Assembly: GCA_903825765.1 (NCBI GenBank)
Contig: CAIKBU010000023.1
Location: 1-47,485 of the forward strand
Length of the DNA stretch: 47,485 nt
DNA from: an uncultured Actinomycetes bacterium
Lineage (GTDB): Bacteria; Actinomycetota; Acidimicrobiia; Acidimicrobiales; RAAP-2
Reading direction: 5' to 3'
Both the position numbers and the translations under genes were made by a program. Numbering within the stretch: the first letter of the stretch is position 1; every line of letters begins with the position of its first letter. The notes beneath the pieces were generated by a model. That model was not told where the DNA came from. It was given only the letters and a program-made list of their open reading frames with translations, and did not search any database. Shown piece by piece: positions 8,438-43,872 of this stretch.

Positions 8438-9066
8438 ACCCTAGAAAATCGCTTTTCTACCAGGTAGTGGCCCTGATTCTCCGCGGCATCGCCACGGTGA
8501 TTTCGCGGCCCACGGTACATGGTGAAGCGAACATCCCCGCAACCGGCCCAGTCCTTATTGCACCCACGCACCGTTCCAACGTGGACTTCGCGTTCTCCCT
8601 CTTCATGACAAAGCGCAAGGTGTTTTTTATGGCCAAGGACAGCCTCTTTGGCATTCCGGTCGTAGGAAGAGCAATCATCGCGCTCGGCGCATTCCCCGTC
8701 GCTCGTGGCACCGCCGATCGCGACGCGATGCGGGCCGCTCAGTCGGTGCTCGCCGCTGGACACGCACTCATTCTCTTTCCTGAAGGCACCAGAAAGTACG
8801 GCGCCACGGTCGATGATCTGCTGGATGGCACGATGTTCATCGCCGCACGAGAGCAGGCCACCGTTGTCCCCGTCGGTCTCGCCGGCACCGAGACCTTCGC
8901 GGCAAACCTCAAGCGAGGGAGACTCGCGCGGGTGACAATCGTGATCGGCGAACCAATCACTCCACCGGAAGCGTCTGAACGCGTCTCGCGTTCAGCGGTA
9001 TCGGCCAAAACAGTAGAGCTTCAGAGAAAATTACAGCTGGCGCTGGACGAGGCGCAAGGAAACTAG
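8413..9066 (+). CDS. plsC: 1-acyl-sn-glycerol-3-phosphate acyltransferase (PlsC family)
   Basis: A 217-aa membrane-associated acyltransferase of phospholipid synthesis. The catalytic HxxxxD motif is His53-Asp58 (HRSNVD) and the FPEGTR substrate motif is at 122-127; a hydrophobic N-terminal stretch (about 15-31) would anchor it. The GTG start has GGAG 9-12 nt upstream and overlaps the end of cmk. Its stop interlocks with the glycosyltransferase gene on the other strand in a CTAG. The exact acyl donor and acceptor are inferred from family. Confidence 0.9.
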   Translation: MSRKQLELNPRKSLFYQVVALILRGIATVISRPTVHGEANIPATGPVLIAPTHRSNVDFAFSLFMTKRKVFFMAKDSLFGIPVVGRAIIALGAFPVARGTADRDAMRAAQSVLAAGHALILFPEGTRKYGATVDDLLDGTMFIAAREQATVVPVGLAGTETFAANLKRGRLARVTIVIGEPITPPEASERVSRSAVSAKTVELQRKLQLALDEAQGN

Positions 9067-27805: not shown

Positions 27806-29422
27806 ATGAAGAGCACCATGCAAGACGCACCGTTGCTGATCCGCGACCTCGTCGTACGCGGCGAGCAGATTTACGGACAGAAGTTGGTCTTTACGGTGAC
27901 ACCGACGGGCGTAACGACTCGGTCGTTCACCCAGACTGCTCGGGCCGCGCGTCAGTTGGCGAATGCGCTTCGTTCGCTCGGCGTCACCGACGACACCCGA
28001 GTGGCCACGTTTTTGTGGAATGACCAGACCCACTTAGAGGCGTATCTGGCCGTGCCAACCATGGGCGCCATTCTCCACACGCTCAACATTCGACTATCGC
28101 CGGAGCAATTGGCCTTCGTTATCAATGACGCCCATGACGAAGTGATTATTGTGGACGCCTCCCTGGTTGGTCTTCTGGCTCGGGTTCGAGATCAGATACC
28201 AAACGTGCGCCACATCATCGTGAAGGGAGATGACGTCGACGGCGTGCTTGGCGAAACCTTGTCCTACGACGCTCTCCTCGAAGCTGCCAGCGACACCTTC
28301 GAGTGGCCCGACCTCGATGAGCGGCAGGCGGCCATTCTTTGCTACACCTCGGGAACGACGGGGAACCCCAAAGGGGTCCTTTACTCCCATCGCTCCACGT
28401 GGCTCCATTCCATGGTGGCCACCACGACCAACTCCGTGGCACTCTGCGAAGCCGACCGAGCCCTCTTGGTCGTGCCGATGTTCCACGTCAATGCCTGGGG
28501 GGTGGCCTACGCGGCGTTCTTCGCCGGCACCGAACTCGTGATGCCCTCGATGCTGCTCAAGGGTGAGTACCTCTTGCAGATGATCGAAGAACTTCGACCC
28601 ACAATCGCCCTCGGGGTGCCGACACTCTGGAACGACCTGTTGCGCGCGGCCGCGGAGAAGGGCTCCGCCGATTTCTCCTCACTTCGGTCAATTCTCGCGG
28701 GCGGCTCAGCCGTTCCGCGCGTCATGATCGAAACCTTCAAGGAGCGTCACGGTGTTGACATCATGCAGGGCTGGGGGATGACGGAAACGAGTCCGCTCGC
28801 GGCAGTAGCAATTCCCCCTTCGGGCTCCGACCCAGCGACCCATACCGACTACCGCGTCAAAGCCGGTCGTCTCTCGGCCGGCGTCGAAGCGCGCCTCACG
28901 GGACCAACGGGTGAGGTCTTGCCCCGCGATGGTGTGGCCGTCGGTGAAATTGAACTTCGCGGTCCATGGATCACGGCCGCCTACTACGGCCTCGACGCAC
29001 CCGAACAGTTCCACGATGGCTGGCTCCGCACGGGCGACGTGGGCACCATCGATGCACTCGGCTTCTTGGAGATTAGCGACCGGATCAAGGACGTCATCAA
29101 ATCGGGTGGGGAGTGGATTTCGTCCGTCGAACTCGAGAATCAGATCATGGCGCACCCCGACGTCTTCGAGGCCGCTGTCGTCGGTGTCGCCGACGATCGT
29201 TGGGGTGAACGTCCACTAGCCTGCGTGGTGCTTCGCGAAGGAACCGACGGTGACCCCGCCGCTCTTCGCGAATTCTTGGTGACGTCGTTCCCCAAGTGGT
29301 GGCTCCCCGAACACTGGATGTTCCTGCCGTCGGTCCCCAAAACCAGTGTGGGTAAATTTGACAAGAAGGTACTGCGCGCTCAGTACACCAACCGCGAACT
29401 CGATGTCACGACGCTCTCGTGA
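27806..29422 (+). CDS. AMP-dependent acyl-CoA synthetase (medium/long-chain fatty acid-CoA ligase type)
   Basis: A 538-aa ANL-superfamily ligase. The ATP/AMP motif [11 protein letters not shown], the [10 protein letters not shown] motif, GWLRTGDVG and the hinge [15 protein letters not shown] are intact, as is the C-terminal catalytic lysine in [10 protein letters not shown]. Best fit is the FadD-like or alkK-like group activating medium- to long-chain acids; the chain length cannot be read. ATG 27806 follows AAGGGGAA. It overlaps a small downstream gene by 4 nt. Confidence 0.9.
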
Positions 29423-29613
29423 GTGAGTGGCACGATATCGCGGACGACATTGCCGCCATCGAACAGCGGGTCAGTGGCGCCATCTTTGAACAGGTCAGGG
29501 CACAGTTGCGCGACGATGACGCCGACGAGGCGCACCAGCGAGAAAAACAACTAGCGAAAGTCCGACGATCCTTGCAAAAGGCTGAACAACTTCTTCGGGG
29601 CGCTCAGGACTAA
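29419..29613 (+). CDS. Small charged coiled-coil hypothetical protein
   Basis: A 64-aa protein of unknown function, rich in Asp, Glu, Gln and Arg, with heptad-like hydrophobic spacing (IEQRVSGAIFEQVRAQL and LAKVRRSLQKAEQLL). Its GTG start overlaps the acyl-CoA synthetase stop (GTGA), and its stop interlocks with the LOG gene on the other strand. The precise stop-start coupling is the main support that it is real. Confidence 0.6.
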   Translation: MSEWHDIADDIAAIEQRVSGAIFEQVRAQLRDDDADEAHQREKQLAKVRRSLQKAEQLLRGAQD

Positions 29614-30440
29614 GCAATCCAGTGGTTCGCTTCGTCGATGATGCGACGAAGTTGACCGTAACTCCGTCCCGAATAGGGGAAGCGAATAGTCGAGTCGCTG
29701 GGCTGCACGACCAAAGCTGGCTCTACCGTGCGCACGTGCGCCAACTGCTCACTCGTGGGGAGTGTCCGCAGGACAAGATGGGCATTACCGTCAATTCGCT
29801 CGAAGGAGACAAAGTTCGCGTAGAACTGATCGACAGCGTCTCGCACAGCAGGGACGGAGTCGCACCGCTGATACGCGACCGCGTCACCCGGACACAAGTA
29901 CCCCTCACCAATGACGTCGTCAGTCATGAAGTCCTCCCAGCGACGCCAGAACGTGCCCGTTGGCTCCTCCAGAAGTACAACCGGCACTGGTGCGGTCTTG
30001 CCGGTGTAGAGCAGCGTGAGCAGTTCGAAGAGTTCGTCCATGGTCCCGACCCCACCGGGGAGCGCGACAAAGGCCTTCGTGCGCGACACCATGACGACCT
30101 TGCGGGTGAAGAAGTGTCGCATGGTCACGGTTCGTTCATCGGGGACGTGAGGGTTGGTGCCATGCTCGAACGGCAACTCAATATTGACGCCCAAGGTGTT
30201 GGTTTCACCCGCACCCCGACTGGCCGCCTCCATGATGCCGGGACCCGCACCCGTCAAGATGCGCCAGTTGCGTGACGCAAAATCCGCGGCCACGTCGGCG
30301 GCGAGCAGGCTGAGCGGGTGGTGTTGAGGCGTGCGGGCGGAGCCGAAGATAGCCAGAATTGGCCGATCGTCGTGTCGATGGGTGAGCGCGAGGCCGGCCT
30401 CGAGATCCTGCATGGCGTTGTGCACGAAATTGCTAGCCAC
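29610..30440 (-). CDS. LOG family / TIGR00730 Rossmann-fold nucleotide hydrolase
   Basis: A 276-aa LOG-family protein. The PGGVGTMDELFE motif, with its arginine- and glutamate-containing active site, and GAGPGIMEAASRGA define the family. Related proteins remove phosphoribose from cytokinin or purine nucleotides; for bacterial members of this length the physiological substrate is generally unclear. Last gene of the tkt-tal-pgi-fbiC operon, overlapping fbiC by 8 nt. Confidence 0.88.
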   Translation of the reverse strand: MASNFVHNAMQDLEAGLALTHRHDDRPILAIFGSARTPQHHPLSLLAADVAADFASRNWRILTGAGPGIMEAASRGAGETNTLGVNIELPFEHGTNPHVPDERTVTMRHFFTRKVVMVSRTKAFVALPGGVGTMDELFELLTLLYTGKTAPVPVVLLEEPTGTFWRRWEDFMTDDVIGEGYLCPGDAVAYQRCDSVPAVRDAVDQFYANFVSFERIDGNAHLVLRTLPTSEQLAHVRTVEPALVVQPSDSTIRFPYSGRSYGQLRRIIDEANHWIA

Positions 30441-32703
30441 GTGTCAACGTCCGATACAGAGTGGAGCGCTGGACGAGTGGGCGACCGAGCGGCGCGACCA
30501 AATCCTCAAGTGTGGCCACGTCCATCTCTTGTCCGTGCACCGCACCTGCGGCGCGCGAGATATTTTCATCCATCAAGGTTCCGCCAACGTCGTTCGCACC
30601 AGCTTGCAGGATTCGTCGTGAGCCTTCAATCCCCATCTTGACCCAGCTGACTTGAATGTTGTCAATCACCGTGGCGTAGTGCAGTCGAGCGACGGCGTGC
30701 ATGAGTAGGCATTCGCGGAAGGTAGGGCCCTTACGGCTCTTCCCCTGCAAGAACATCGGTGTCGCCATGTGCACGAAAGGCAGAGGAACGAATTCGGTGA
30801 AGCCGCCCGATCGTACCTGCAATTCTCTGGTGCGGATCAAGTGTTTCGCCCAGTGCTCGGGTGATTCAATTGCCCCGAACATAATCGTGATATTCGAACG
30901 CAACCCCACACTGTGGGCGGCCTCGTGGACCGCGAGCCACTCATCGGTCTTCAACTTGTCAGGACAGAGCAGGGCGCGAACGTCGTCATCCAAAATCTCC
31001 GCGGCCGTGCCTGGGAGCGTCTTGAGACCAGCGTTCTTGAGTCGAGTCAAGTACGTCGTCAGGTCCTGTTCACTACGCCGCGCTCCTTCAAATACCTCGA
31101 GTGCGCTGAATGCATGAATGTGAACATCGGGTGAGCCCGCCTTTACCGCCGCCACGACGTCGATGTAGTAGTCACCGTCGAATTTGGGGTGAATGCCACC
31201 CTGCAGACACACTTCGGTGGCTCCACGTTCGACCGCTTCACGAACGCGCGTAGAAATATCATCGAGCGTGAGTAGGTAGGGCTCGCCACGCAAATTCAAT
31301 GACAGTGGGCCCTTGGAGAAGGCGCAAAATCGACACTTGAAGGTGCAGACATTGGTGTAGTTGATATTGCGATTCACCACGTAAGTTACGTCAGGTCCCA
31401 CGAGGTCGCTGCGGACCTGGTCTGCGAGATCCACGATTGCTCGCAGGTCACCGTCGCGGGCGCGAAAGAGCGTCGTTAGCTCCCGCTCGTCGAACGCCTG
31501 TCCTGGCGCGTAGTCGCGGAGAAGCGCACTAATTGCTGACGTTCGTACCGTTGCCGTGGGCAGGGGTGGCGGGGTGGCGTCATCGCCTGAATGCCACTCA
31601 TCGTCCCGCGAAAGGCTCAGGGCGTCGCTGAGTTTGAGCACGGACGGACGGACGCCGGCGTCGAGAAAATCGTTCCGCATCCCAACGTAGGTGGGGTAGA
31701 CCGTGAGGCGAGGAACTAGGTGGAGTCCCTCGGCGGCGACCGCAGTACCGAGAGTGGCAATAGCGGGCCACGCTCGCTCGGGGTTCACGTGGTCTTTGGT
31801 GACGGGTGAAATACCACCAAAGTCATCAATTCCGAAGGCGAGCAGTTTCGCCGGTTCATCACTTAGATTCGGTGGTGCCTGGAGGTGAATCGTCGGTGGC
31901 AAAATGAGCCGTGCGGCGGCGATCGTCCAATGGAACTCTTCGTCGGAGGCAGCGGGGGCTTTTGCCATGGCGGTACCCGCCTTTGGCAGGAAGTTCTGAA
32001 TGATCACTTCTTGGACGTGCCCGAATTCTTCGTGTGAGGCTGCAATCGCCGTCAGCGTGTCAATTCGGTCCCGTCTGGTTTCGCCAATGCCCACCAAGAG
32101 CCCGGTGGTAAACGGTATGCGCAAGACACCCGCCGATCGCAAGGTCGCAAGACGACGAGCGGGCTCCTTGTCCGGCGCCATGCGGTGCGCCTCAACTTCG
32201 CTGAGCGTTTCGAGCATCATGCCCTGCGACGCACTGACCGCGCGAAGTTGGGCGAGTTCGTGTTCGTAGAGCGCACCGGCGTTGACGTGAGGGAGGAGGC
32301 CCGTGGCTTCGAGCACCATTTGTGCTGCAGTCGCCACGTAGTCAACCGTGCTTCGGTACCCTCGCGCCGCGAGCCATTGAGCGGCGACGTCGTAACGCAA
32401 TTCGGGTCGTTCACCCAACGTAAAGAGCGCCTCGGTGACACCGACCGCACGGCCAGCTTCTGCCACCGCCATCACTTCGTCAAGCGACATGAAGGGTGAG
32501 GTCAGTCGAGCGGGAGCCTGCGCGAACGTGCAGTAACCACAGCGATCGCGGCACAGTTTCGTGAGCGGGATAAAGACTTTGGGCGAATAGGTGATGGTGT
32601 GCCCAAAGGCCTCACGGGCAATGACGTAGGCGTCTGCGGCCAAGGTCGACGCACTGCTCGTGAGCAAGCGCTCGTTCAGCGCAGCGCTGGCGACGTTGGC
32701 CAT
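30433..32703 (-). CDS. fbiC: 7,8-didemethyl-8-hydroxy-5-deazariboflavin (FO) synthase, CofG-CofH fusion
   Basis: A 756-aa protein with two radical-SAM halves that together make FO, the deazaflavin chromophore of coenzyme F420. The CofG half comes first with CRDRCGYC near residue 51 and MMLETLSEVEAHR; the CofH half has CTFKCRFC near residue 460 and the GGFTEFVPLPFVH motif. By eye it matches Mycobacterium FbiC in both halves, but is about 100 aa shorter, lacking most of the N-terminal extension and part of the linker. It starts 3 nt after pgi. Confidence 0.95.
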   Translation of the reverse strand: MANVASAALNERLLTSSASTLAADAYVIAREAFGHTITYSPKVFIPLTKLCRDRCGYCTFAQAPARLTSPFMSLDEVMAVAEAGRAVGVTEALFTLGERPELRYDVAAQWLAARGYRSTVDYVATAAQMVLEATGLLPHVNAGALYEHELAQLRAVSASQGMMLETLSEVEAHRMAPDKEPARRLATLRSAGVLRIPFTTGLLVGIGETRRDRIDTLTAIAASHEEFGHVQEVIIQNFLPKAGTAMAKAPAASDEEFHWTIAAARLILPPTIHLQAPPNLSDEPAKLLAFGIDDFGGISPVTKDHVNPERAWPAIATLGTAVAAEGLHLVPRLTVYPTYVGMRNDFLDAGVRPSVLKLSDALSLSRDDEWHSGDDATPPPLPTATVRTSAISALLRDYAPGQAFDERELTTLFRARDGDLRAIVDLADQVRSDLVGPDVTYVVNRNINYTNVCTFKCRFCAFSKGPLSLNLRGEPYLLTLDDISTRVREAVERGATEVCLQGGIHPKFDGDYYIDVVAAVKAGSPDVHIHAFSALEVFEGARRSEQDLTTYLTRLKNAGLKTLPGTAAEILDDDVRALLCPDKLKTDEWLAVHEAAHSVGLRSNITIMFGAIESPEHWAKHLIRTRELQVRSGGFTEFVPLPFVHMATPMFLQGKSRKGPTFRECLLMHAVARLHYATVIDNIQVSWVKMGIEGSRRILQAGANDVGGTLMDENISRAAGAVHGQEMDVATLEDLVAPLGRPLVQRSTLYRTLTRG

Positions 32704-32706
32704 GGG

Positions 32707-34020
32707 TTATAAAGTCAGTCCGAGAAGCGCGCCGGCGTCCTCGATTGAATCGACAAGCACCTGGTAGACCCGCTTGTGGGACTGCTGCATCGCGCGGTAG
32801 TCGCCCGTGGCCTGAGCCATGTGCAGATCGTGGAAGCTGTAGCCGCGACCGGCAATTCGCTGGGGTTCCGTCGATGGTCGCTGAATGACCTGAACGCCCA
32901 CCACCGAGGCCGGTCCACCCTTGTGTAGCTGGCCCGTGGAGTGCAGGTACCGAGGACCGAGGTTGGCCGTTGTTGGTCCGTACTGTGCTTCAATCTCACT
33001 ACGCAGGGCGGCCAAGTGGGCGCCGGTGGTGAAGGGCGCGTACGCCTGAAGGGTGATGTAGGAGGCGGACTGCAGGTCGTTGACGAGGTCAATCATGGCG
33101 AAGGGGGCAGACTCCCACACAACGTCGCCCTCCAGCAGTGCGAAGACTTCCTTCTTTGCCGATTCCACATTCGGCTGATTGAAGGGGTCCACGCCGAGGT
33201 GGTGAGCCAACAAGGCGGCCAGCAGGTGGTAGTACTGCATCTCACCGGGTGAGTAGAGCGCACTGGCACCATCGAAGTGAGGGATAAATCCCCGCCCTTC
33301 CTTACCGGTGGTTTCGGCCACCAACTGCTCTAGCCACAAGGCCCCACCACTTGCAATCGGGTCAGCACCCAATGAGAAGAAAGCGGCACCGTCGACCACC
33401 GTGGTGGCCAGCGCCTCGGCGTCGTTGGCGACGCGCGTCAAGAGTTCTTCACTCAAGTAGCAGGTCGCGAGCTCGTCGCGCAGTTCGGCGACGCTCCAGC
33501 CTGCGTAGAGAGCCGGTATCAGTCCAAACGGCGACAAGGATGAGAAACGACCACCGGTGTCGGGGTCGCCAAGGACGACTAGCGCACCCAGTGACGCACC
33601 GAGTTCGGCGAGTGCGGTACCTGGGTCCGTGATTACAACCAGATCCTCGGGCGAAAGGCCGTTCGCCAGGGCGTGGGCGAGCAGTGTCTGCGTCTCGACT
33701 GTTCCACCCGACTTCGACGAAGCAATCACGGTGGCGTTGGAAAAGTCCAAGGCCGCCACGGTGTCGGGGTGTGATGTGTCAACGACAGTCAAGTGATTCT
33801 CTGGGCGCCAGTCCGCGTAGAGACGAGCCGGTGAACTCGATCCGCCCATGCCGAGCAAGAGAGTCCGTTCGTAGCGACGGGGGAGCCGTGCGTCGATGTC
33901 GTCGAGCCATTCACCGAAATAGCGCTCGGGGTGGCGAAGCCATCCCGTTGCGTGTGTGGCGGTGTCACCAATGAAAAAGGAAACATCGCCACTAAGAAGC
34001 TGCTGCACTACATCGGTCAT
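32707..34020 (-). CDS. pgi: Glucose-6-phosphate isomerase (compact form)
   Basis: A 437-aa enzyme interconverting glucose-6-phosphate and fructose-6-phosphate, about 110 aa shorter than E. coli Pgi. SIS-domain phosphate motifs GMGGSSSPAR and SSKSGGTVETQ and the catalytic region DPFNQPNVESAKK are clear. It overlaps tal by 4 nt and is 3 nt from fbiC. No zwf or gnd is in the operon. A bifunctional phosphoglucose/phosphomannose isomerase is possible but less likely given NQPNVE. Confidence 0.88.
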   Translation of the reverse strand: MTDVVQQLLSGDVSFFIGDTATHATGWLRHPERYFGEWLDDIDARLPRRYERTLLLGMGGSSSPARLYADWRPENHLTVVDTSHPDTVAALDFSNATVIASSKSGGTVETQTLLAHALANGLSPEDLVVITDPGTALAELGASLGALVVLGDPDTGGRFSSLSPFGLIPALYAGWSVAELRDELATCYLSEELLTRVANDAEALATTVVDGAAFFSLGADPIASGGALWLEQLVAETTGKEGRGFIPHFDGASALYSPGEMQYYHLLAALLAHHLGVDPFNQPNVESAKKEVFALLEGDVVWESAPFAMIDLVNDLQSASYITLQAYAPFTTGAHLAALRSEIEAQYGPTTANLGPRYLHSTGQLHKGGPASVVGVQVIQRPSTEPQRIAGRGYSFHDLHMAQATGDYRAMQQSHKRVYQVLVDSIEDAGALLGLTL

Positions 34021-35132
34021 TGCTGTCCCTTGTCTAATTTTTCTTGTACTAATGCCAATAGGTCATCGTAGGAGCGAATGAACGCCGCCACGCCGTCTCG
34101 TTCGAGCGTCAACGTCACCTCATCGAGTGACACGTCACCTTCGAGTGAGGCGAGCAGCGACACCGCTTCACGCCGGACCGACTCATCCAGCAACAACGAC
34201 GCCGCGAAGTTTCCCTGTGTCAGGGTGGCGGCGAGGGTGGGGTCGGGCATTGTGTTGACCGTTTCGTTTGCCACAATCGAGTTGACGTAGAGCAATTCGT
34301 CGTACGACGGGTTCTTCGTCGACGTTGACGCCCAAAGTGGGCGCTGGACTTGGCTGCCAGCGAGGAGAAGATCAGTGACCTCCTCCGAGGCCGCGTGGGT
34401 CAGATAGGCCTCGTACGCGGCTGCCACTTGCGCGTTCGCCACGCGCCCCCGACGATCGTCCCCTGCGGGGAGCAACTCATCCACCATGGCGTCGACACGC
34501 GACACGAAAAAGCTCGCCACCGAAGCGAGGGGGCGGAGGTCATGATTATTTGCGAGCGCCAACGCGACGCCCGTGGCCCAGGCGTCGAGGACGGCCCGGT
34601 AGCGCTCCAGAGAGAAAATCAGCGTGACGTTGACATTGATACCCAGACCCAGCACCGCAGTAATTGCGGGCAGTCCCTCAATCGTCGCGGGAATCTTGAT
34701 CATGACGTTTGGGCGATCAACGGCAGCGTAGAGGCGCTGCGCCGCTTCAATGGTGCCGGCAGTGTCGTGGGCCAAGCGTGGTGACACCTCAAGCGACACG
34801 TATCCGTCAGTAAAACGGCGAATGCCGGACGCCTGCTCGGCAACCGATGATTCATACACGGGGCGCAAGACGTCACAGGAGTCGCGGACGTCAGCGACGG
34901 CGAGCGCCTCGAACACGGTCTCAGGGTCCGTACTCCCAACGGTGGAGACCAACGAATCGTAGGCACTCGAGGTGGCGAAGGCTTTCGCGAAAATGGCCGG
35001 ATTGGAGGTGACGCCACGAGCGCCGTCGGCAACTAGTTGGGCCAAAGTTCCGTCGTTTAGCCAGTCACGGCGAATGTTGTCAATCCACGGACTCTGCCCA
35101 TAGGTTTCATACAACTCGTGCAATTTCGTCAT
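34017..35132 (-). CDS. tal: Transaldolase
   Basis: A 371-aa pentose-phosphate enzyme of the long actinobacterial/cyanobacterial class. VTSNPAIF (residues 41-48) and the Schiff-base Lys146 in MIKIPAT identify it. ATGA-type 4-nt overlaps link it to tkt upstream and pgi downstream. Confidence 0.95.
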   Translation of the reverse strand: MTKLHELYETYGQSPWIDNIRRDWLNDGTLAQLVADGARGVTSNPAIFAKAFATSSAYDSLVSTVGSTDPETVFEALAVADVRDSCDVLRPVYESSVAEQASGIRRFTDGYVSLEVSPRLAHDTAGTIEAAQRLYAAVDRPNVMIKIPATIEGLPAITAVLGLGINVNVTLIFSLERYRAVLDAWATGVALALANNHDLRPLASVASFFVSRVDAMVDELLPAGDDRRGRVANAQVAAAYEAYLTHAASEEVTDLLLAGSQVQRPLWASTSTKNPSYDELLYVNSIVANETVNTMPDPTLAATLTQGNFAASLLLDESVRREAVSLLASLEGDVSLDEVTLTLERDGVAAFIRSYDDLLALVQEKLDKGQQ

Positions 35133-37111
35133 TCGCCCGCCAATCGGTTGAGTACGTGATCGACTACCGCGGAGGCAGCAATCGAGAAATGATCAAAGAC
35201 AAAGACGCCCGGTGCTGAGAGGCCGAACGTGTCGATGCCGAGCGCCTCGTCGGCGTACTTGTGCCAGCCGAGAGTGGCGCCAGCTTCGAGCGAAACACTG
35301 GGCAGGTCGTAGCGCAAAACACTGCCGCGGTAATTACTCGTCTGCTCTTGAAAACAGGTCCAGCAGGGAAGGGCTACGACGCGAACCGCGACGTCTTGCT
35401 CCGCGAGCATCGTGGCAGCCTCGAGGCAGTGACCAACCTCAGATCCCGTGGCCATGAGAGTGAAGACCGCATCGGGGTGTTCACGAACGACGTACCCCCC
35501 TCGAGCGGCCCCTTGACGTGACGCAATGGCTTCAGCGCCCGTCAGCACCGGAATGTCCTGACGAGTCAGAATCAGTGCCGTTGGTGGTGGCGTGGAGGAA
35601 CGCAGAAAGTTTTCAACCAACTGCACCGTCTCGTTGGCGTCGCTGGGTCGAACGACGTGCAACTCCGGCATCACGCGAAGTGACATCAACTGTTCAATCG
35701 GTTGGTGCGTTGGACCATCTTCACCAACGCCAACCGAGTCATGGGTAAACACAAACAGAGCACTCGCCTCGGATAGGGCGGCCATTCGTAACGCGGGACG
35801 GACGTAGTCGCTGAAGACAAAGAAGGTTGACCCAATTGGGCGAATACCACCGTGGAGGGCCTGACCCACCATGATGGCCCCCATGGCAAATTCACGAATG
35901 CCGTAGTAAATCTGACGGCCACCCGGGTTGTCGGCAGTTTGGGCGGTCGAGAAGCTCACAACGACGCCCGTGTTATCAGTCAAGTCAGCTGAACCCGACG
36001 TGATGCCCGTCGTCTGTGCGGCGAACGCGTCCATGGCCCGCTGCATCGCCTTTCGGGTAGCAACATTGCCATCCTCGTAGACCGCTACCGATGTCTCACC
36101 CGTCAGCGCACCATTCGAGGCCAACTGCGCGAGCAGTGCCTCGCCGCGGACGCCAGCCTGCGTCACTCGGTCAGCCCACTGGGCCGCGTACGGTGGGCAT
36201 TGAGCAACCGCCTGTGCGGCAATGTCTTCATCGACGACGAACGAGTCACTACTCATGCCGAGTACTGCCTTCGCTTCGGCGATCACGTCTGCCTTAAATG
36301 GCGACCCGTGCGCTTCACGACGGTCCATCATCGCGGGGGAGGGGAAGCCAATGTGACTGCGCACGACAATCAACGTCGGTCGAGTTGTCTCGGCGTGCGC
36401 TTGACGAACCGCGTCCTCAAGAACATCGAGGTCGTTCGCGGCGTCACCGACATTGATGACCTGCCACCCGTACGCCGTAAAGCGACCCACCACATCGTCG
36501 CGAAGTGCCAACTCAGTGGGGCCGTCGATGGTGATGTGGTTGTCGTCGTAGAAAACCGTGAGGCGATCGAGACCAAGGGAACCGGCGAGGGAGGCGGCCT
36601 CGTGGCTAATACCCTCTTCGAGACAACCGTCTCCGGCGATCACGTAGGTGCGGTGGTCGACAAGGTCACTGCCGTGCTGGGCACGCAGCACCCGTTCGGC
36701 AATCGCCATACCGACGCCGTTGGCAATACCCTGACCGAGTGGACCCGTGGTCACTTCGACCGTCTGCGTCACGCCTCGCTCTGGGTGACCTGGCGTCTTC
36801 GAAAAAGGCTGACGGAAGGCGAGGAGGTCGTCGCGGGTGACGTCGTAGCCAAAAGCGTTGGCGAGTCCGTACTGCAGCATCGAGGCATGGCCGCAACTCA
36901 AAATGAAGCGGTCTCGGTCGGGGAACGACGCGTCGCGGGGGTCGTGCTTCAAAATTCGTGAAAACAAGAGGACACCCAGCGGGGCCAGTGCCATCGCTGT
37001 GCCGCTGTGCCCGGACTGGGCTTTGGCGGGGCCGTCCATGGCGAGCCCCACAATCTGGCGAATTGCGCGCCCTTCGAGGGGTGTTGCTCCACGGTACGCA
37101 TCATCTGTCAT
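35129..37111 (-). CDS. tkt: Transketolase
   Basis: A 660-aa thiamine-diphosphate enzyme of the pentose phosphate pathway. GDGCLEEGISHEA binds ThDP and metal; HPERGVTQTVEVTTGPLGQG and the VGEDGPTHQPIEQL motif are standard. The frame has an ATG at 37153, but TACGAT lies 7 nt before the ATG at 37111, and no ribosome binding site precedes either, so I prefer 37111. First gene of the five-gene operon ending in LOG. Confidence 0.95.
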   Translation of the reverse strand: MTDDAYRGATPLEGRAIRQIVGLAMDGPAKAQSGHSGTAMALAPLGVLLFSRILKHDPRDASFPDRDRFILSCGHASMLQYGLANAFGYDVTRDDLLAFRQPFSKTPGHPERGVTQTVEVTTGPLGQGIANGVGMAIAERVLRAQHGSDLVDHRTYVIAGDGCLEEGISHEAASLAGSLGLDRLTVFYDDNHITIDGPTELALRDDVVGRFTAYGWQVINVGDAANDLDVLEDAVRQAHAETTRPTLIVVRSHIGFPSPAMMDRREAHGSPFKADVIAEAKAVLGMSSDSFVVDEDIAAQAVAQCPPYAAQWADRVTQAGVRGEALLAQLASNGALTGETSVAVYEDGNVATRKAMQRAMDAFAAQTTGITSGSADLTDNTGVVVSFSTAQTADNPGGRQIYYGIREFAMGAIMVGQALHGGIRPIGSTFFVFSDYVRPALRMAALSEASALFVFTHDSVGVGEDGPTHQPIEQLMSLRVMPELHVVRPSDANETVQLVENFLRSSTPPPTALILTRQDIPVLTGAEAIASRQGAARGGYVVREHPDAVFTLMATGSEVGHCLEAATMLAEQDVAVRVVALPCWTCFQEQTSNYRGSVLRYDLPSVSLEAGATLGWHKYADEALGIDTFGLSAPGVFVFDHFSIAASAVVDHVLNRLAGE

Positions 37112-37118
37112 CTCATCA

Positions 37119-37124
37119 ATCGTA
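37119..37124 (-). promoter_or_regulatory. Leaderless -10 element for tkt
   Basis: Minus-strand TACGAT followed by 7 nt and ATG 37111. It would drive the whole tkt-tal-pgi-fbiC-LOG operon. Confidence 0.4.
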
Positions 37125-37189
37125 GTAAAAGCCACGAGACGCTTCGTGCTCATTCACTGGCCCCAACCGGCTTTTCGAGAGACGATGAG

Positions 37190-37195
37190 TAGGAT
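37190..37195 (+). promoter_or_regulatory. Leaderless -10 element for the small membrane protein operon
   Basis: TAGGAT followed by 6 nt and GTG 37202. Confidence 0.5.
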
Positions 37196-37201
37196 ACGAA
37201 T

Positions 37202-37552
37202 GTGAAATTTCCTCAGTGGCGCTCGCTCACCCGCGGTCTCACGTTTCAGCGTGATGTCACTGAGTTGCGCGCCTTACTCGTCCGGTATCTCAAGGAAGAG
37301 ACACTCGACCCGTTCAAGTCAATCGGTCGTTACCTGGCTTTCGGAATACTCGGAAGCCTCTTCGTTGGCTTTGGCGCGTTCTTGCTACTCCTCGGACTTC
37401 TGCGGTATCTCCAGTGGCAGTTTCCCTTTCTCGATGGTTCGGAGTCGTGGTTGCCCTACACAATTGTCTCCCTCCTCGCGTTAGCGGGCATTGGCTTTAC
37501 GGTCTTTCGGATCACTCGCTCCGTTGGGCGACCCCGTGGGGATCGTCCATGA
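37202..37552 (+). CDS. Holin-X-like two-TM membrane protein
   Basis: A 116-aa protein: an amphipathic N-terminal region (QRDVTELRALLVRYLKEE), a glycine-rich membrane segment (about 45-68), a second one (about 85-105), and a basic tail. The pattern resembles the phage-holin-superfamily / DUF1469 proteins of Actinobacteria, whose role is unknown. GTG start 6 nt after TAGGAT. It overlaps the next small gene by 4 nt. Confidence 0.75.
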   Translation: MKFPQWRSLTRGLTFQRDVTELRALLVRYLKEETLDPFKSIGRYLAFGILGSLFVGFGAFLLLLGLLRYLQWQFPFLDGSESWLPYTIVSLLALAGIGFTVFRITRSVGRPRGDRP

Positions 37553-37731
37553 CGGAACGCTCACCGACCCGAAAAGAAATCGAACAGCGCCTTCGCGACT
37601 ATGTACCGTCCTCAATGCCATCGCTGGACCCGTCAGACGCCCCAGCACAGATCGCCGCTGCTGGGGCCGGTGGGGCATTGATCGGTTTTGTCTGGGGGTT
37701 CGTTAAAGGTCGTAAGCGGCGGCGGCGATGA
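37549..37731 (+). CDS. Small membrane protein with polybasic tail
   Basis: A 60-aa hypothetical protein. The charged N-terminus (TERSPTRKEIEQRLRDY) is followed by a small hydrophobic, Ala/Gly-rich segment (about 36-52) ending in GKGRKRRRR-like basic residues (KGRKRRRR). ATGA overlaps couple it both to the upstream holin-like gene and to the 47-aa gene downstream. It is not recognisable as a named family. Confidence 0.7.
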   Translation: MTERSPTRKEIEQRLRDYVPSSMPSLDPSDAPAQIAAAGAGGALIGFVWGFVKGRKRRRR

Positions 37732-37871
37732 GGGTCTTTCTCAGTGCACTCGTGCGTTACGCCTTGACACGTGGGGCCAAGGGTGCGGGCGCGTGGTACG
37801 TGGTCGTCGGTGTCCTAGGCTTGCTCGGCGCAGCGGTGCGCTGGTTGGCGCCTCGCGCCACGAAACGATAG
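37728..37871 (+). CDS. 47-aa membrane microprotein
   Basis: Reading from ATG 37728 gives 47 residues: a short basic N-terminus, a Gly/Ala spacer, a hydrophobic segment (WYVVVGVLGLLGAAVRWL) and a basic end. The start overlaps the previous stop as ATGA, and the TAG stop lies 9 nt before trmI. Size and coupling suggest a real microprotein; function unknown. Confidence 0.62.
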   Translation: MRVFLSALVRYALTRGAKGAGAWYVVVGVLGLLGAAVRWLAPRATKR

Positions 37872-37874
37872 GGA
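37869..37874 (+). promoter_or_regulatory. Stop-overlapping -10-like hexamer or ribosome binding site before trmI
   Basis: TAGGGA begins with the TAG stop of the 47-aa gene and is 6 nt before GTG 37881. The GGGAG within it may instead be a ribosome binding site. Confidence 0.3.
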
Positions 37875-37880
37875 GTCCAC

Positions 37881-38660
37881 GTGTCCTCAGCAGTACTACG
37901 AGAGGGTGAGCGCGTCATGTTGATTGACGCCAAGGACCGTCAATACATGATCACCCTCAAACCCGGCAATACCTTTCACACGCACGCCGGTATCGTCGCC
38001 CACGACGACGTCATTGGCGCCCTCGAAGGATCGCTTATCCGGGGCACCACGGAGCGAAGCTTCCTTGTCCTGCGTCCAACGATGTCCGAAGTAGTGCTCA
38101 AGATGCCGCGCGGAGCGCAGGTGATTTACCCCAAGGACCTTGGCACCATCTTGATGATGGCCGACATTGGCCCAGGCATGCGTGTGCTCGAGGCGGGGGT
38201 CGGCTCCGGCGCCCTCTCAATGACCCTGCTTCGCGCTGGGGCACACATCACGGCGTACGAAATTCGCGAGGACTTCGCAAATCACGCCCGAAAGAACGTC
38301 TACGAAATGCTCGGCACCGACGTCCCCTACGACATCCACATTCGCGACGTCACGGAGAACATCGAAGAACGAGACCTCGACCGAATTTTGCTCGACATGC
38401 CAGAACCACACGCCGTTGTGGCTCACGCCGAAAAGGCCCTTCGTCCCGGCGGCATATTTCTGGCGTATTTGCCAACCATCAATCAGACCGCCCAACTGCG
38501 CGAAACACTGCGCCAGCACCAGTTCGGCTTCGAAGAGACCGTCGAAATACTGCGACGCACGTGGCACATTGATGGCCGCTCAGTTCGCCCGGACCACCGT
38601 ATGGTAGGTCACACTGGCTTCCTCACGACGGCTCGCCGCGTGGTGCGCGAGGCTCGCTAG
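37881..38660 (+). CDS. trmI: tRNA (adenine-N1-)-methyltransferase TrmI
   Basis: A 259-aa SAM-dependent methyltransferase modifying adenine 58 in the tRNA T-loop, matching the mycobacterial Rv2118c type. The N-terminal beta domain precedes the Rossmann domain with VLEAGVGSGALS as SAM motif I and RILLDMPEPH as motif IV. It stands upstream of the proteasome locus as in mycobacteria. Its stop interlocks with the ferredoxin gene in a CTAG. Confidence 0.93.
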   Translation: MSSAVLREGERVMLIDAKDRQYMITLKPGNTFHTHAGIVAHDDVIGALEGSLIRGTTERSFLVLRPTMSEVVLKMPRGAQVIYPKDLGTILMMADIGPGMRVLEAGVGSGALSMTLLRAGAHITAYEIREDFANHARKNVYEMLGTDVPYDIHIRDVTENIEERDLDRILLDMPEPHAVVAHAEKALRPGGIFLAYLPTINQTAQLRETLRQHQFGFEETVEILRRTWHIDGRSVRPDHRMVGHTGFLTTARRVVREAR

Positions 38661-38890: not shown

Positions 38891-38981
38891 AAAAACGTCC
38901 TTTGCTTGGTACCACGTACGGCGTTAAGGTTAGTCGCTCGACATTACGGATAACGCCTTTCCTCGGTCCGGATTCTTCCCC

Positions 38982-38987
38982 TAGGGT
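38982..38987 (+). promoter_or_regulatory. Leaderless -10 element for mpa
   Basis: TAGGGT followed by 7 nt and GTG 38995. An earlier in-frame GTG at 38986 overlaps this hexamer. Confidence 0.42.
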
Positions 38988-38994
38988 GTCGTAC

Positions 38995-40704
38995 GTGGAA
39001 CCAGAACGTCCTGACGAACCTCTGACGCCAAACCCGTTTGCCCTGAGCGACTTCAATCAGGCTCGGCGCCGAATCGAAACGCTTGAGCAACGTCTCGTCG
39101 AATCGCGCACCTCCTTGTCATCGAGCAAAGAGCAAAACGAAAAGCTCGCCAGTGCCCTGCAACTCACCCGTGACCACCTCGCCTCCTTGCGCCACGAAGT
39201 GGCCAAACTCTCCCAGCCACCTGCGGCCTACGGCACCCTCTTGGGCTTCAACGACGACGGGTCTGTCGACATCAGCACTTCCGGTCGAAAAATGCGCGTG
39301 GCCCTCCACCCCAACATCGATCCGGGACAAGTCAAAAGGGGCTACGAGGTTGTCCTCAATGACTCCTACGCAGTCATTGCCGTTCGCGAGGGCGTTCGCG
39401 ACGGTGACATTGTGACGGTCAAAGAATTGCTCGGCGACAGTCGGGTAATTGTCTACAGCCGCAACGAAGAAGAGCGGGTGGTCGACGTTGCCGATGACGT
39501 GATGCGCGATGGTCTACGCAGTGGTGATCACGTACTTCTCGAAACGCGCAGCAATTTCGTGGTCGAGAAACTCACGACGCCTGAATCCCAAGACCTCATC
39601 TTGGAAGAGGTGCCCAACGTCTCCTACGCCGACGTCGGTGGTCTCGACGCGCAAATCGAACTCATTACGGACGCTGTGGAGTTGCCCTACCTGCACCGTC
39701 GACTATTTTTGGACTACGAACTGCCGGCCCCGAAGGGCATTCTTCTCTACGGACCGCCGGGCTGTGGCAAGACCTTGATCGCTAAAGCCGTCGCGAGCTC
39801 GCTCTCCCAGAAGGTAGCTGCCTTGACGGGGAACCACAACGTCCGTTCATATTTTCTAAATATCAAGGGACCTGAACTTCTCAACAAGTACGTGGGCGAG
39901 ACGGAGCGTCAGATTCGCGTCGTTTTTCAGCGGGCCCGCGAGAAGGCCGCCGAGGGCGTTCCCGTCATCATCTTCTTCGACGAAATGGACTCGTTGTTTC
40001 GTACGCGAGGCACCGGCATCTCCTCCGACATGGAATCAACGGTTGTACCCCAGCTCTTGGCCGAGATCGATGGTGTCGAGTCGCTGCGGGATGTCATCAT
40101 CATTGGCGCCACGAATCGCGAAGACTTGATTGACCCCGCTATCTTGCGACCCGGTCGACTCGACGTCAAGATCAAGATTGAACGACCGCACGAGGAAGCG
40201 GCGGCCCAGATTTTCTCGCGCTACCTGCACGCCGACCTCCCACTCGATGAAGGTTTCGTCACGGTTGACGGTGGCGGGGATCGTGAGAAGGCCGTTCGCC
40301 TGCTCATCGAACAGACAGTTGCCAACATGTACAGCATCGACGACGACAACCGATTCCTCGAGGTGACCTACCAAGGCGGCGACAAGGAAGTGTTGTACTT
40401 CAAAGACTTTGCCTCGGGCGCGATGATTGAAAACATCGTCCGTCGTGCGAAGAAACTCGCGGTAAAACGTGACATCGCAGGACTGGGACGGGGTATCCAT
40501 CTCAATGACCTCCTCGCATCTATTCGTGACGAATACCACGAGAACGAGGATCTGCCAAACACCACCAACCCCGATGACTGGGCTCGCATCTCCGGTAAGA
40601 AGGGTGAGCGAATTGTCTTTATCCGCACACTCATCAATCGGGCGCAGCACGACGTCAGTGGTGGTCGTTCAATCAGCGGCGTCGGAACTGGTCAGTACCT
40701 CTAG
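38995..40704 (+). CDS. mpa: Proteasome-associated AAA ATPase (Mpa/ARC)
   Basis: A 569-aa hexameric unfoldase that recognises pupylated proteins and feeds them to the 20S core. A coiled coil (about residues 20-65) for Pup binding, tandem OB domains, and the AAA module with GPPGCGKT and FFDEMDSL follow in order. The extreme C-terminus GTGQYL carries the Tyr-Leu that docks on the proteasome. Start is uncertain: GTG 38995 (preferred), GTG 38986, or a far TTG at 38902. dop begins 2 nt after its stop. Confidence 0.96.
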   Translation: MEPERPDEPLTPNPFALSDFNQARRRIETLEQRLVESRTSLSSSKEQNEKLASALQLTRDHLASLRHEVAKLSQPPAAYGTLLGFNDDGSVDISTSGRKMRVALHPNIDPGQVKRGYEVVLNDSYAVIAVREGVRDGDIVTVKELLGDSRVIVYSRNEEERVVDVADDVMRDGLRSGDHVLLETRSNFVVEKLTTPESQDLILEEVPNVSYADVGGLDAQIELITDAVELPYLHRRLFLDYELPAPKGILLYGPPGCGKTLIAKAVASSLSQKVAALTGNHNVRSYFLNIKGPELLNKYVGETERQIRVVFQRAREKAAEGVPVIIFFDEMDSLFRTRGTGISSDMESTVVPQLLAEIDGVESLRDVIIIGATNREDLIDPAILRPGRLDVKIKIERPHEEAAAQIFSRYLHADLPLDEGFVTVDGGGDREKAVRLLIEQTVANMYSIDDDNRFLEVTYQGGDKEVLYFKDFASGAMIENIVRRAKKLAVKRDIAGLGRGIHLNDLLASIRDEYHENEDLPNTTNPDDWARISGKKGERIVFIRTLINRAQHDVSGGRSISGVGTGQYL

Positions 40705-40706
40705 CC

Positions 40707-42188
40707 ATGGCGGTCGCCAAGGTTCTGGGCATCGAAACTGAATATGGCGTTGCCGGAGGACCCGATGGCGATCCCATCACGGCGTCGACACTTATCGTCA
40801 ACGCCTACGCGCAACACGAACGTCGACGCGTGGCCTGGGATTTCGCGGATGAGACACCCGGGCGCGATGCACGGTCGCAACCCACGATGAGTTACCCCCC
40901 AGCGATCGAAATTCACCTGGCTAATACCGTTTTGACGAACGGTGCTCGGCTGTACGTGGATCACGCCCACCCCGAGTACTCCTCCCCAGAAGTTCGAACG
41001 CCGCTCGAAGCAGTGCTGTTCGACCAGGCCGGTGAATTGGTCATGCGAAAAGCCTTAGAGACGTGTAACGCCACCTTTGATCCAGCCTTCGCACTTCGTC
41101 TCTATAAGAACAATTCCGACGGCAAGGGAAATTCCTACGGCACCCACGAGAACTATCTCGTGGACCGAGCCGTGCCATTCGATGATCTCGTACGGGGACT
41201 TCTGCCGCACTTCGTCAGTCGTATGGTCTTTTGCGGCGCCGGCAAAGTTGGCTCCGAGACCGACGAAGCACGTGGGTACAACACCACTTTTCAAGTCAGC
41301 GCCCGGGCCGAATTCTTTGAAGAAGTCGTCGGACTCGAAACCACTCTCAAGCGGCCACTCATCAATACCCGCGACGAACCACATAGTGACGCCGAGAGAT
41401 TTCGGCGACTCCACGTCATCAACGGTGACGCCACCATGAGCCCTGTCGCGACGTGGCTCAAACTGGGCACCACGAGTCTCCTGCTGTCCTACATCGAACG
41501 CCGTGGTGTGGCGTCACTGCCTCCACTTCCTGCGAGACCAGTCCGTGCCTTTCGACAGTTCGCCCGTGATGAGTCACTTACGGTCACCACCGCCACCGAG
41601 GCGGGGGAGTGGCGCGCCCTCGATTTCCAAGAAGAGCTATTTGCCCTCATTCAACGCTTTGTCGCTGACGAGGGGGCCGATGACGTTGCGCCGGAATCGG
41701 AAGTCTTGTCACTCCTGATCGAGTGGCGCAACGCCCTCGATTTGCTCGCAACGTCACCCGATGACCTCGCCGATTCGGTCGACTGGATCGCCAAGCGCCG
41801 GATCCTCCGTGCCTATCAAGAACGCTACGGCTGCGGCCCCCTCGACGCACGCCTGCGAGCGATTGATCTGCAATACGCCGATATTCGACCCGAGAAGTCT
41901 TTGGCCGCTCGCGCACGGCTTCGACCGCTCTTCTCTGACGAGGACATTCAAGCGGCGGTGAGTGCACCACCTCGTTCGACTCGGGCCTACTTCCGAGGTA
42001 CGTGCATCGAACGCTTCAGCGAGTCACTCGTCAGTGCAAACTGGGACTCCTTAGTCTTTGACGTCGGCGAAGGCCCGCTCCAACGGGTGGCCATGATGGA
42101 CCCGCTCCGAGGGACTGCGGCGCTGACTGAACCATTGTTTGCCAGCGTTGCAACGGCCAGAGAACTCGTTGTCGCACTGAACGGCTAG
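40707..42188 (+). CDS. dop: Pup deamidase/depupylase
   Basis: A 493-aa carboxylate-amine-ligase fold enzyme that converts the C-terminal Gln of Pup to Glu and removes Pup from substrates. GIETEYGV starts the ATP-binding core, the long insert (residues about 20-60) is the Dop loop that distinguishes it from PafA, and Asp85 in YVDHAHPEYSSPE is the nucleophile position. It aligns by eye with Mycobacterium Dop throughout. Confidence 0.96.
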   Translation: MAVAKVLGIETEYGVAGGPDGDPITASTLIVNAYAQHERRRVAWDFADETPGRDARSQPTMSYPPAIEIHLANTVLTNGARLYVDHAHPEYSSPEVRTPLEAVLFDQAGELVMRKALETCNATFDPAFALRLYKNNSDGKGNSYGTHENYLVDRAVPFDDLVRGLLPHFVSRMVFCGAGKVGSETDEARGYNTTFQVSARAEFFEEVVGLETTLKRPLINTRDEPHSDAERFRRLHVINGDATMSPVATWLKLGTTSLLLSYIERRGVASLPPLPARPVRAFRQFARDESLTVTTATEAGEWRALDFQEELFALIQRFVADEGADDVAPESEVLSLLIEWRNALDLLATSPDDLADSVDWIAKRRILRAYQERYGCGPLDARLRAIDLQYADIRPEKSLAARARLRPLFSDEDIQAAVSAPPRSTRAYFRGTCIERFSESLVSANWDSLVFDVGEGPLQRVAMMDPLRGTAALTEPLFASVATARELVVALNG

Positions 42189-42191
42189 AAC
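42186..42191 (+). promoter_or_regulatory. Stop-overlapping -10-like hexamer before pup
   Basis: TAGAAC, whose TAG is the dop stop, lies 6 nt before the pup ATG. The last base is C, not T. No ribosome binding site is evident for pup. Confidence 0.3.
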
Positions 42192-42197
42192 TTAAGC

Positions 42198-42392
42198 ATG
42201 ACCGAACAAGAACGAATGCAACGAGATGGTAGCGAGCGGAGCGAATCATTGCCCACTGAAACCACCACCGAAAGTTCCTCAACCTCCGATTTGACCGATG
42301 AGCTGGACAGCTTGCTCGACGAGATTGACAGCGTGCTGGAAGAAAACGCCGAAGAGTTTGTCCGCAACTACGTGCAAAAGGGTGGCCAGTAG
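42198..42392 (+). CDS. pup: Prokaryotic ubiquitin-like protein Pup
   Basis: A 64-aa intrinsically disordered tag. The C-terminal half LLDEIDSVLEENAEEFVRNYVQKGGQ-type region is nearly identical to mycobacterial Pup, and it ends in Gly-Gly-Gln, so Dop must deamidate it before ligation. The N-terminal half is Ser/Thr/Glu-rich. It starts 9 nt after dop and ends 2 nt before prcB. Confidence 0.98.
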   Translation: MTEQERMQRDGSERSESLPTETTTESSSTSDLTDELDSLLDEIDSVLEENAEEFVRNYVQKGGQ

Positions 42393-42394
42393 CA

Positions 42395-43189
42395 ATGGGG
42401 CTGCCACTGTTTGATGCATCGAATGATCCCGGCCCTTCGTTTCTCGCGTTCGCTCAGGCAGCTGGCATGCGCCTTTCGAGTGGGCACGAGCGTGAATTGA
42501 GCGCCCACGCTACGACCGTCGTCGCTCTCCGATGTGACACCGGCGTCGTGATGGTGGCCGACCGACAGGCCACGAGTTACTACGTTGCGGGCCGCGACGT
42601 TCGGAAGATTGAGGCGGCCGACGCCTACACCGGTATCGCAATTTCAGGCTCAGCGGCAATGGGCATGGAGTTCATTCGCATTGCTCAACTTTCATTCGAG
42701 CACTACGAGAAGATGAGCGAAATGTCACTCAGTCTTGAGGGCAAGGCGAATTTTCTCTCGCCAATGATTCAGAACAACAACTTTTCCCTCGGTCTCATGG
42801 TGATCCCCATGCTCGCCGGCTGGGATCAGAGTCGCCAGCAAGGTCGCATTTTCGAATACGACGGGGCGGGCGGTTGCTACGAGCGAAGCGACTTCGCCAC
42901 GATTGGCTCGGGTACGCCGTTCGCCGAAAGCACCCTTCGACTGGGATTTCGCAGTGACTTGACCCAAAGCGAAGCCCTCGAACTGGCCGCTCTGGCGATT
43001 TACGAGGCGGGCGACAATGACCCGTCGACGGGTGGGCCCGACTTCGTGCGGAACCTCTTCCCAATGATGGTGACTATTACCGAGGCTGGCTTTGTTGAAC
43101 TGCCAACCGACTTCGCCGGCGCGACCTTTCGCACAATTCTCGAGCGTCGCACCGCGAGCGGCGGTATGGCGGGAGGCACCCTGCGATGA
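42395..43189 (+). CDS. prcB: 20S proteasome beta subunit
   Basis: A 264-aa Ntn-hydrolase. The 39-residue propeptide ends in His-Ala, and the mature protein begins at Thr40 (TTVVALR), the catalytic nucleophile; Asp17 and Lys32 (mature numbering) match the usual Asp17/Lys33. The residue before Thr1 is Ala where actinobacterial PrcB usually has Gly. GSGTPFAES and DPSTGGPDFVR follow mycobacterial PrcB. ATGA overlap with prcA. Confidence 0.96.
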   Translation: MGLPLFDASNDPGPSFLAFAQAAGMRLSSGHERELSAHATTVVALRCDTGVVMVADRQATSYYVAGRDVRKIEAADAYTGIAISGSAAMGMEFIRIAQLSFEHYEKMSEMSLSLEGKANFLSPMIQNNNFSLGLMVIPMLAGWDQSRQQGRIFEYDGAGGCYERSDFATIGSGTPFAESTLRLGFRSDLTQSEALELAALAIYEAGDNDPSTGGPDFVRNLFPMMVTITEAGFVELPTDFAGATFRTILERRTASGGMAGGTLR

Positions 43190-43863
43190 GCAACTTCTAT
43201 TACGTGCCGCCAGAACAAATCATGAAGGACCGGGCCGAATTCGCTCAAAAGGGCATCGCGCGCGGTCGATCGATTGTTGCGGCCATCTACGACCAGGGTG
43301 TCGTTCTCGTCGCCGAGAACCCGTCCGCATCGCTCTACAAGATTTCGGAGCTGTACGACCGCCTCGCCTTCGCTGGGGTGGGGAAGTACAACGAATTCGA
43401 CCGCTTGCGCGAGGCCGGTATCCGCTGGGCCGACATGACGGGATTTACCTATTCGCGTGAGGACGTTGAGGCACGAGCACTCGCGAACTACTACGCCCAG
43501 CACCTTGGCGACACTTTCTCTAACGGGTACAAGCCACTCGAAGTCGAAGTGCTGGTCGCCCAGTTGGGTAATGAAACCCATCCCACCAAGTTGTACCGAA
43601 TTGGGTACGACGGGACTATTGCCGACGAGGAGCGCTTTGCCGTGCTGGGTGGTGACGCCGAATCCATTCGCGCCCGCTTCCATCAGCTCTCAACCGACAT
43701 TGCAACGCTGTCGCTCACGCTGCAACGGGCAATTTCGGCCCTGGCCGGCACCGGTCGAAACATCGCGACAGGAGACCTCGAGGTCGCGATCTTGGAGGAG
43801 CGAGGCGTTCGACGTACCTTTCGTCGCCTGAGCGAAGCTGACGTCGACTCTCACCGCCAGTAG
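43186..43863 (+). CDS. prcA: 20S proteasome alpha subunit
   Basis: A 225-aa subunit of the outer rings. The N-terminal gate segment (MSNFYYVPPEQIMKDR) and RGRSIVAAIYDQGVVLVAENP match mycobacterial PrcA; KISELYDR and GKYNEFDRLR follow. It has no catalytic Thr. The stop TAG begins a hexamer 6 nt before pafA. Confidence 0.96.
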   Translation: MSNFYYVPPEQIMKDRAEFAQKGIARGRSIVAAIYDQGVVLVAENPSASLYKISELYDRLAFAGVGKYNEFDRLREAGIRWADMTGFTYSREDVEARALANYYAQHLGDTFSNGYKPLEVEVLVAQLGNETHPTKLYRIGYDGTIADEERFAVLGGDAESIRARFHQLSTDIATLSLTLQRAISALAGTGRNIATGDLEVAILEERGVRRTFRRLSEADVDSHRQ

Positions 43864-43866
43864 GGC
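43861..43866 (+). promoter_or_regulatory. Stop-overlapping -10-like hexamer before pafA
   Basis: TAGGGC, with the prcA stop as its first half, is 6 nt before GTG 43873. The last base departs from the consensus T. Confidence 0.3.
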
Positions 43867-43872
43867 TGTTTC

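Follow-up and report, generated by a model that had tools for sequence, protein, structure and literature searches.

The window analysed here, a stretch of 47,485 nucleotides (nt) from contig CAIKBU010000023.1 of assembly GCA_903825765.1, belongs to an uncultured bacterium of the Acidimicrobiales (GTDB lineage RAAP-2) whose genome is small. It carries a tight run of five genes on the minus strand, tkt, tal, pgi, fbiC and a gene of the LOG family, separated by -4, -4, +3 and -8 nt. The product of fbiC is the synthase of FO, the chromophore of cofactor F420, and we consider it likely that this operon is a shrunken acidimicrobial cluster joining the pentose phosphate pathway (PPP) to FO synthase. 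As judged from gene order across genomes, the finding is conserved but modest: a PPP–FO synthase cluster recurs among the Acidimicrobiales, and its oxidative genes are absent by lineage. Co-transcription of the run is likely from the gene layout. A first reading of the window, based on its sequence only, had proposed that F420 chromophore synthesis and PPP genes are co-expressed, with an F420-linked glucose-6-phosphate (G6P) dehydrogenase as a possible rationale; the co-expression itself is likely, because the genes overlap and their linkage is conserved, while the rationale is not upheld by the evidence presented below.

Linkage of fbiC to pentose phosphate genes within the genus

Among 41 genomes of the genus, including that of the window (G000), fbiC was found in 38. 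In four of these (G004, G018, G032 and G039) the contig starts at or just before fbiC, leaving 34 assessable genomes, G000 among them, and in every one of the 34 the gene comes after tal (32 genomes) or tkt (two, G015 and G038), with both genes on one strand. A full pgi stands directly before fbiC in 13 of the 34, G000 included, and the adjacency of these two genes is thus not private to this genome, a possibility that the sequence-only reading had allowed for. In the other 21, comprising 19 tal-fbiC genomes and both tkt-fbiC genomes, pgi before fbiC is absent or a remnant, such as the two fragments seen in G005 or the weak one with a stop in G009. In G015 and G038 (loci L154 and L159) there is no tal, and tkt lies directly against fbiC; both genomes have a canonical pgi and zwf elsewhere. 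Additionally, neither tal nor fbiC is present in G045 and G048, and this region may be unassembled in them.

The cluster outside the genus and its history

The wider sample consisted of the best 80 of 590 FbiC loci, in which near relatives are over-represented and groups were sorted by identity and record title. The six best FbiC relatives (73-77% identity) come from metagenome-assembled genomes; three of these bear the title Acidimicrobiaceae, including two 'palsa' isolates, and the other three Actinomycetes. When loci with 5 kb upstream are considered, fbiC is linked to tkt or tal in 5/5 loci of the genus, in 25/33 others, which are mostly acidimicrobial or unplaced actinobacterial, and in 0/12 of those titled as other taxa; at any upstream length, the last group shows the link in 1/17 (L042, titled Acidobacteria, with tal-fbiC-LOG and 3 kb upstream). 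Locus L016, scored as unlinked, holds pgi-gnd-zwf-opcA-pgl upstream of fbiC, after which the contig ends. Considering loci with at least 1.5 kb downstream, the LOG gene comes after fbiC at a distance of no more than 600 nt in 7/7 loci of the genus, 10/52 others and 1/15 with other-taxa titles.

In some relatives the cluster is fuller, with the order tkt-tal-pgi-gnd-zwf-opcA-pgl-...-fbiC, followed in some by the LOG gene. At nine loci outside the genus (L010, L011, L013, L014, L015, L016, L018, L020 and L025) zwf is found upstream of fbiC within the cluster; several of them also hold gnd, opcA or pgl, and in L014 and L016 the contig starts inside the cluster. Because zwf occupies this position in nine relatives, the contact between pgi and fbiC probably results from loss of the oxidative block. 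On the simplest reading, the oxidative genes dropped out of the cluster in the genus, and pgi or tal thereby came to lie next to fbiC. A tree of FbiC is compatible with this, and is no proof of the direction of the change. It has 54 rows (the window, 34 loci of the genus and 19 others, the rows of L006 and G009 being identical); G004, G035 and G039 were left out as partial, and G031, G045 and G048 have no fbiC match and hence no row. Operonic pgi requires 12 changes on this tree, compared with a mean of 15.3 after shuffling (17 of 500 shuffles were as low). With 13 of its forks open and three of its end branches long, the tree does not support exact loss events.

The linkage might also be a matter of inertia, with fbiC being one housekeeping gene of a conserved block (gltB, gltD, acyl-CoA ligase, LOG, fbiC, pgi, tal, tkt, tRNA methyltransferase and proteasome genes) and sharing a PPP transcript without metabolic meaning. 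Indeed, several loci of the genus (e.g., L131, L132, L133, L138 and L140) share one gene order that runs from dop/arc as far as gltB or gltD, and G031 is without fbiC while its tkt, tal, pgi and LOG genes remain. However, the tkt-tal-fbiC link occurs outside the genus in L028, L037, L050 and L060, loci in which the remaining neighbours were not detected, and in relatives it is oxidative PPP genes that sit between tal and fbiC. We therefore regard inertia as an unlikely explanation.

In Corynebacterium and Streptomyces, tkt, tal, zwf, opcA and pgl form an actinobacterial operon. The run described here resembles it in the close spacing of tkt and tal, and the clusters of the relatives also hold zwf, opcA and pgl. 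By contrast, in the window's cluster and assembly zwf, opcA and gnd were not found, and fbiC and the LOG gene follow instead. In the open-access literature we did not find the linkage of fbiC to PPP genes described, nor anything joining fbiC, transketolase, transaldolase and F420, or cofactor F420, Acidimicrobi and fbiC; in the main text of one review (PMC8498797), 'acidimicrob' occurs 0 times. As a separate observation, a GGDEF (diguanylate cyclase) protein is encoded between pgl and fbiC in two relatives (L018:8490-9920 and L073:6023-7459).

Oxidative pentose phosphate genes

The assembly to which the window belongs (1,750,661 bases in 129 contigs, 96.33% complete) gave no match to zwf, which codes for G6P dehydrogenase (G6PD; PF02781), to gnd (PF00393) or to opcA (PF10128); Corynebacterium glutamicum, one of the controls, was found by both the zwf and the opcA searches. 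The absence of zwf and opcA from the operon, already recognized in the sequence-only reading, therefore extends to the whole assembly, in which the NADP route from G6P appears to be missing. Across the genus, G6PD is found in 29/41 genomes, Gnd in 29/41 (as weak, split matches) and OpcA in 1/41. Eleven of the 41 are without both G6PD and Gnd, and six of these (G000, G013, G016, G031, G037 and G052) are at least 96% complete.

Synthesis and reduction of F420

The sequence-only reading had proposed that the NADP route is perhaps replaced by an F420-dependent G6P dehydrogenase drawing on the G6P that Pgi makes, and that the genes for G6P supply and for F420 synthesis are expressed together on this account. 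It is true that pgi adjoins fbiC and that the genes of the NADP route were not found in the assembly. However, no protein of the Fgd family reaches the cut-off (TIGR03554, 420 bits) in any of the 41 genomes, nor in any of the 14 control genomes: the best match in G000 has an E value of 4.9e-4, and the strongest in the genus, in G007, scores 194 bits in a genome that also has zwf. Moreover, there is no Gnd match in the assembly, and 6-phosphogluconate would hence have no onward route by this pathway; Fno is present; and in 21 of the 34 assessable genomes fbiC follows tal or tkt with no full pgi separating them. The proposal would need an unrelated F420-linked enzyme, or one encoded in the unassembled part of a 96% complete assembly, and we consider it very improbable. 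Its author had thought it open to refutation by a canonical zwf-opcA operon elsewhere in a genome without fgd; no fgd was found, but no zwf either. The genome search suggested along with it recovered homologues of cofD, cofE and cofC, no match for zwf or opcA, and no Fgd above cut-off.

Fno (NpdG; TIGR01915, cut-off 149.8 bits) scores 166.7 bits in G000 (C47:19057-19662) and is above the cut-off in 38 of the 41 genomes. In G000, CofD matches with 304.4 bits and CofC with 41.7 bits, and CofE is a 236-residue protein encoded beside CofD (L126:7448-9069, on contig C54). The genome thus shares homologues of FbiC, CofD, CofC and CofE with the mycobacterial Fgd system (TIGR03554) and differs from it in having Fno instead of any Fgd above cut-off. 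A review proposes that NADPH reduces F420 via Fno in those bacteria for which no other F420-reducing dehydrogenase is known (PMC8498797). From its gene content, F420 in this organism is most likely reduced by NADPH via Fno, and not by G6P.

Two side observations concern F420 synthesis. The CofE of G000 has the F420_ligase domain alone, the nitroreductase domain being absent from the protein, while in mycobacterial FbiB a nitroreductase domain is fused to the F420 ligase (PMC8498797); the reduction of dehydro-F420 would consequently require another enzyme. In G031 (96% complete, ~40 contigs), cofD, cofC and Fno are present, yet the search for fbiC gave nothing, either at the locus or in the rest of the assembly; this bacterium is possibly an FO auxotroph that uses FO from others, or there is a gap in the assembly.

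In another explanation, the fuller cluster coupled NADPH production by Zwf and Gnd to the reduction of F420 by Fno, the NADPH half was then lost in this lineage, and the link to fbiC is a relic. It is compatible with the preferred reading, a shrunken PPP–FO synthase cluster, as to the history of the locus. It gains from the position of zwf, gnd and pgl between pgi or tal and fbiC in relatives and from the wide occurrence of Fno in the genus. Nevertheless, the search for Fno was confined to the genus, Fno lies on a different contig from the cluster in G000, and the link to fbiC survived the loss of zwf. A relic of this kind is possible, if rather less than probable.

The operonic isomerase

The product of the operonic pgi gave no Pfam match at E 0.001. 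When it is compared with NF007080 (PRK09533), the bifunctional transaldolase/glucose-6-phosphate isomerase (PGI), residues 3-248 match the PGI half, although divergently, and the C-terminal 138 residues align to profile positions 814-931 with 82.6 bits. As Tal matches the first half of NF007080 (362.7 bits) and Pgi the second, including its C-terminal part, each of these neighbouring genes is the counterpart of one half of this known fusion; the difference is that they are here two genes with a 4-nt overlap, each product scoring far below the 712-bit cut-off.

A profile of 14 Pgi relatives matches 33 distinct PDB sequences, every one of them a PGI. The AlphaFold model (predicted local distance difference test, pLDDT, 89.7) aligns with PGIs in VIA-align with Z up to 24.5 and a root-mean-square deviation (rmsd) of 3.4 over ~298 residues, covering residues 1-309. 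The PGI fold is supported for that part only, as the structural comparison barely reaches residues 310-437, and Foldseek with the full model gave low TM-scores and mostly high rmsd. Residues 310-437 carry the LHSTGQLHKGGP motif and match the TAL-PGI profile. K103, R158, E236, K289 and H360, putative catalytic-type residues, are invariant across 14 aligned proteins. The LHSTGQLHKGGP motif of this family comes after the DPFNQPNVExxK motif (window 32707-33096, minus strand), while in solved PGIs the His loop comes first and the Lys motif second; a segment of the active site may have been relocated in this family.

The genus has two kinds of pgi. Canonical pgi (PF00342) is found in 27/41 genomes and full-length operonic pgi in 14/41, with both in 3/41 and neither in 3/41 (Fisher p 3e-5, or 1.6e-4 among the 26 better genomes, in tests that take related genomes as independent). 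In G032 the pgi stretch is cut by the contig start and was scored as being without a full operonic pgi; when it is scored as present, p is 1e-4. Canonical pgi lies within 5 kb of zwf on the same contig in 21 of the 27 genomes that have it, for instance in locus L129, read in detail, where the order is pgi-gnd-pgl-zwf. The trade-off between the two kinds across the genus suggests that operonic pgi encodes a working isomerase, dispensable once canonical pgi is present. In G005 (L128), a second tal-like gene (38% identity) adjoins the canonical pgi.

Genes of the run and their surroundings

The five genes and their spacings, as given in the sequence-only reading, were confirmed by open reading frames (ORFs) and family scans (Table 1). 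Tkt falls short of the TIGR00232 cut-off (682.25 bits), yet this is by far its best match. The real start codon of tkt may lie downstream of the ATG at 37153; in the reading frame set by this ATG, no codon begins at position 37124, which had been given as the end of the region. Tal is above the cut-offs of both NF002881 (367 bits) and TIGR00876 (281.1 bits; cut-off 233.75). In FbiC, the CofG and CofH domain models are both above their cut-offs (TIGR03550, 449.8 against 213.35 bits; TIGR03551, 519.9 against 374.1 bits), the whole-length model NF006687 scores 1001.8, slightly below its cut-off of 1018, and there are two radical-SAM CxxxCxxC motifs, at residues 51 and 453. The LOG protein matches TIGR00730 with 96.4 bits (cut-off 96.35) and PF03641 with 83.6 bits, and has a PGGVGTMDE motif.

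Table 1. Genes of the tkt-to-LOG run, with positions in the window
Gene	Product	Position	Strand	Details
tkt	Transketolase	35129..37153	-	674-residue ORF; TIGR00232 657.8 bits, residues 32-667
tal	Transaldolase	34017..35132	-	371 residues; 4-nt overlap with tkt; NF002881 406.9 bits
pgi	Divergent glucose-6-phosphate isomerase, PGI half of TAL-PGI family	32707..34020	-	437 residues; 4-nt overlap with tal
fbiC	FO synthase, CofG-CofH fusion	30433..32703	-	756 residues; 3 nt downstream of pgi
	LOG-family (TIGR00730) protein	29610..30440	-	276 residues; 8-nt overlap with fbiC

A promoter-like element had also been reported upstream of tkt. A scan of positions 29300-38000 gave no promoter-like site for the minus strand; the single site lies on the plus strand, and 1.7 are expected by chance. 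Genes of the Pup-proteasome system (ARC ATPase, Dop, proteasome subunit and Pup ligase) are located at positions 38902-45264, divergent from tkt, and arc and dop also adjoin the operon in several loci of the genus.

Weighing the shrunken-cluster reading

Several observations weigh against the view of the operon as a shrunken PPP–FO synthase cluster. G031 (L135, G031:C24:52000-71000, 7534-9780) retains tkt-tal-pgi-LOG without fbiC, and the coupling of PPP genes to fbiC is for this reason dispensable. Outside the genus, 8 of the 33 other loci were counted as unlinked, and the LOG gene is closely downstream of fbiC in a mere 10 of 52. Contacts between tal and fbiC of ~100-160 nt are also found there, in L017 and L028, and the preference for loss of the oxidative genes over their insertion between a paired tal and fbiC is based on outgroups, in a tree that has 13 of its forks open. 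Additionally, Gnd proteins of the genus match PF00393 weakly (best pieces ~37-41 bits), and a very divergent Gnd could escape the search; that for Fgd was made without a positive control, as 0/14 control genomes reach the cut-off.

If the shrunken-cluster reading is correct, the oxidative genes would have gone from the cluster in the genus, leaving tkt, tal, the TAL-PGI-type isomerase (in some members) and fbiC in one tight run, whose products would interconvert hexose and pentose phosphates with no yield of NADPH. From what is known of the pathway, ribose 5-phosphate and erythrose 4-phosphate would come, without the oxidative branch, from fructose 6-phosphate and glyceraldehyde 3-phosphate via tkt and tal. 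They would be needed, among much else, for the substrates of FbiC, since ribitylaminouracil derives from GTP and tyrosine from erythrose 4-phosphate, although this would be a distant supply. F420 would then be built with CofC, CofD and CofE, and Fno would reduce it, using NADPH that does not derive from G6P.

Implications

The cluster is a genomic setting in which FO synthase recurs in an actinobacterial group that is for the most part uncultured, and it cautions that a neighbourhood of fbiC and PPP genes need not imply Fgd. It also points to an F420 producer without the oxidative pentose phosphate pathway, in which the source of the NADPH behind F420 can be sought. A broader and rather doubtful proposition is that F420 synthesis and the PPP have been coupled physically, and perhaps regulatorily, for a large part of the time that the Acidimicrobiales have existed, initially via NADPH and Fno, and that the coupling persists in streamlined lineages without the oxidative branch because the non-oxidative branch would be the sole source of the sugar phosphates behind FO. 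If this were true, the organism would be a bacterium that uses F420 and yet has severed the tie between G6P and its redox cofactors.

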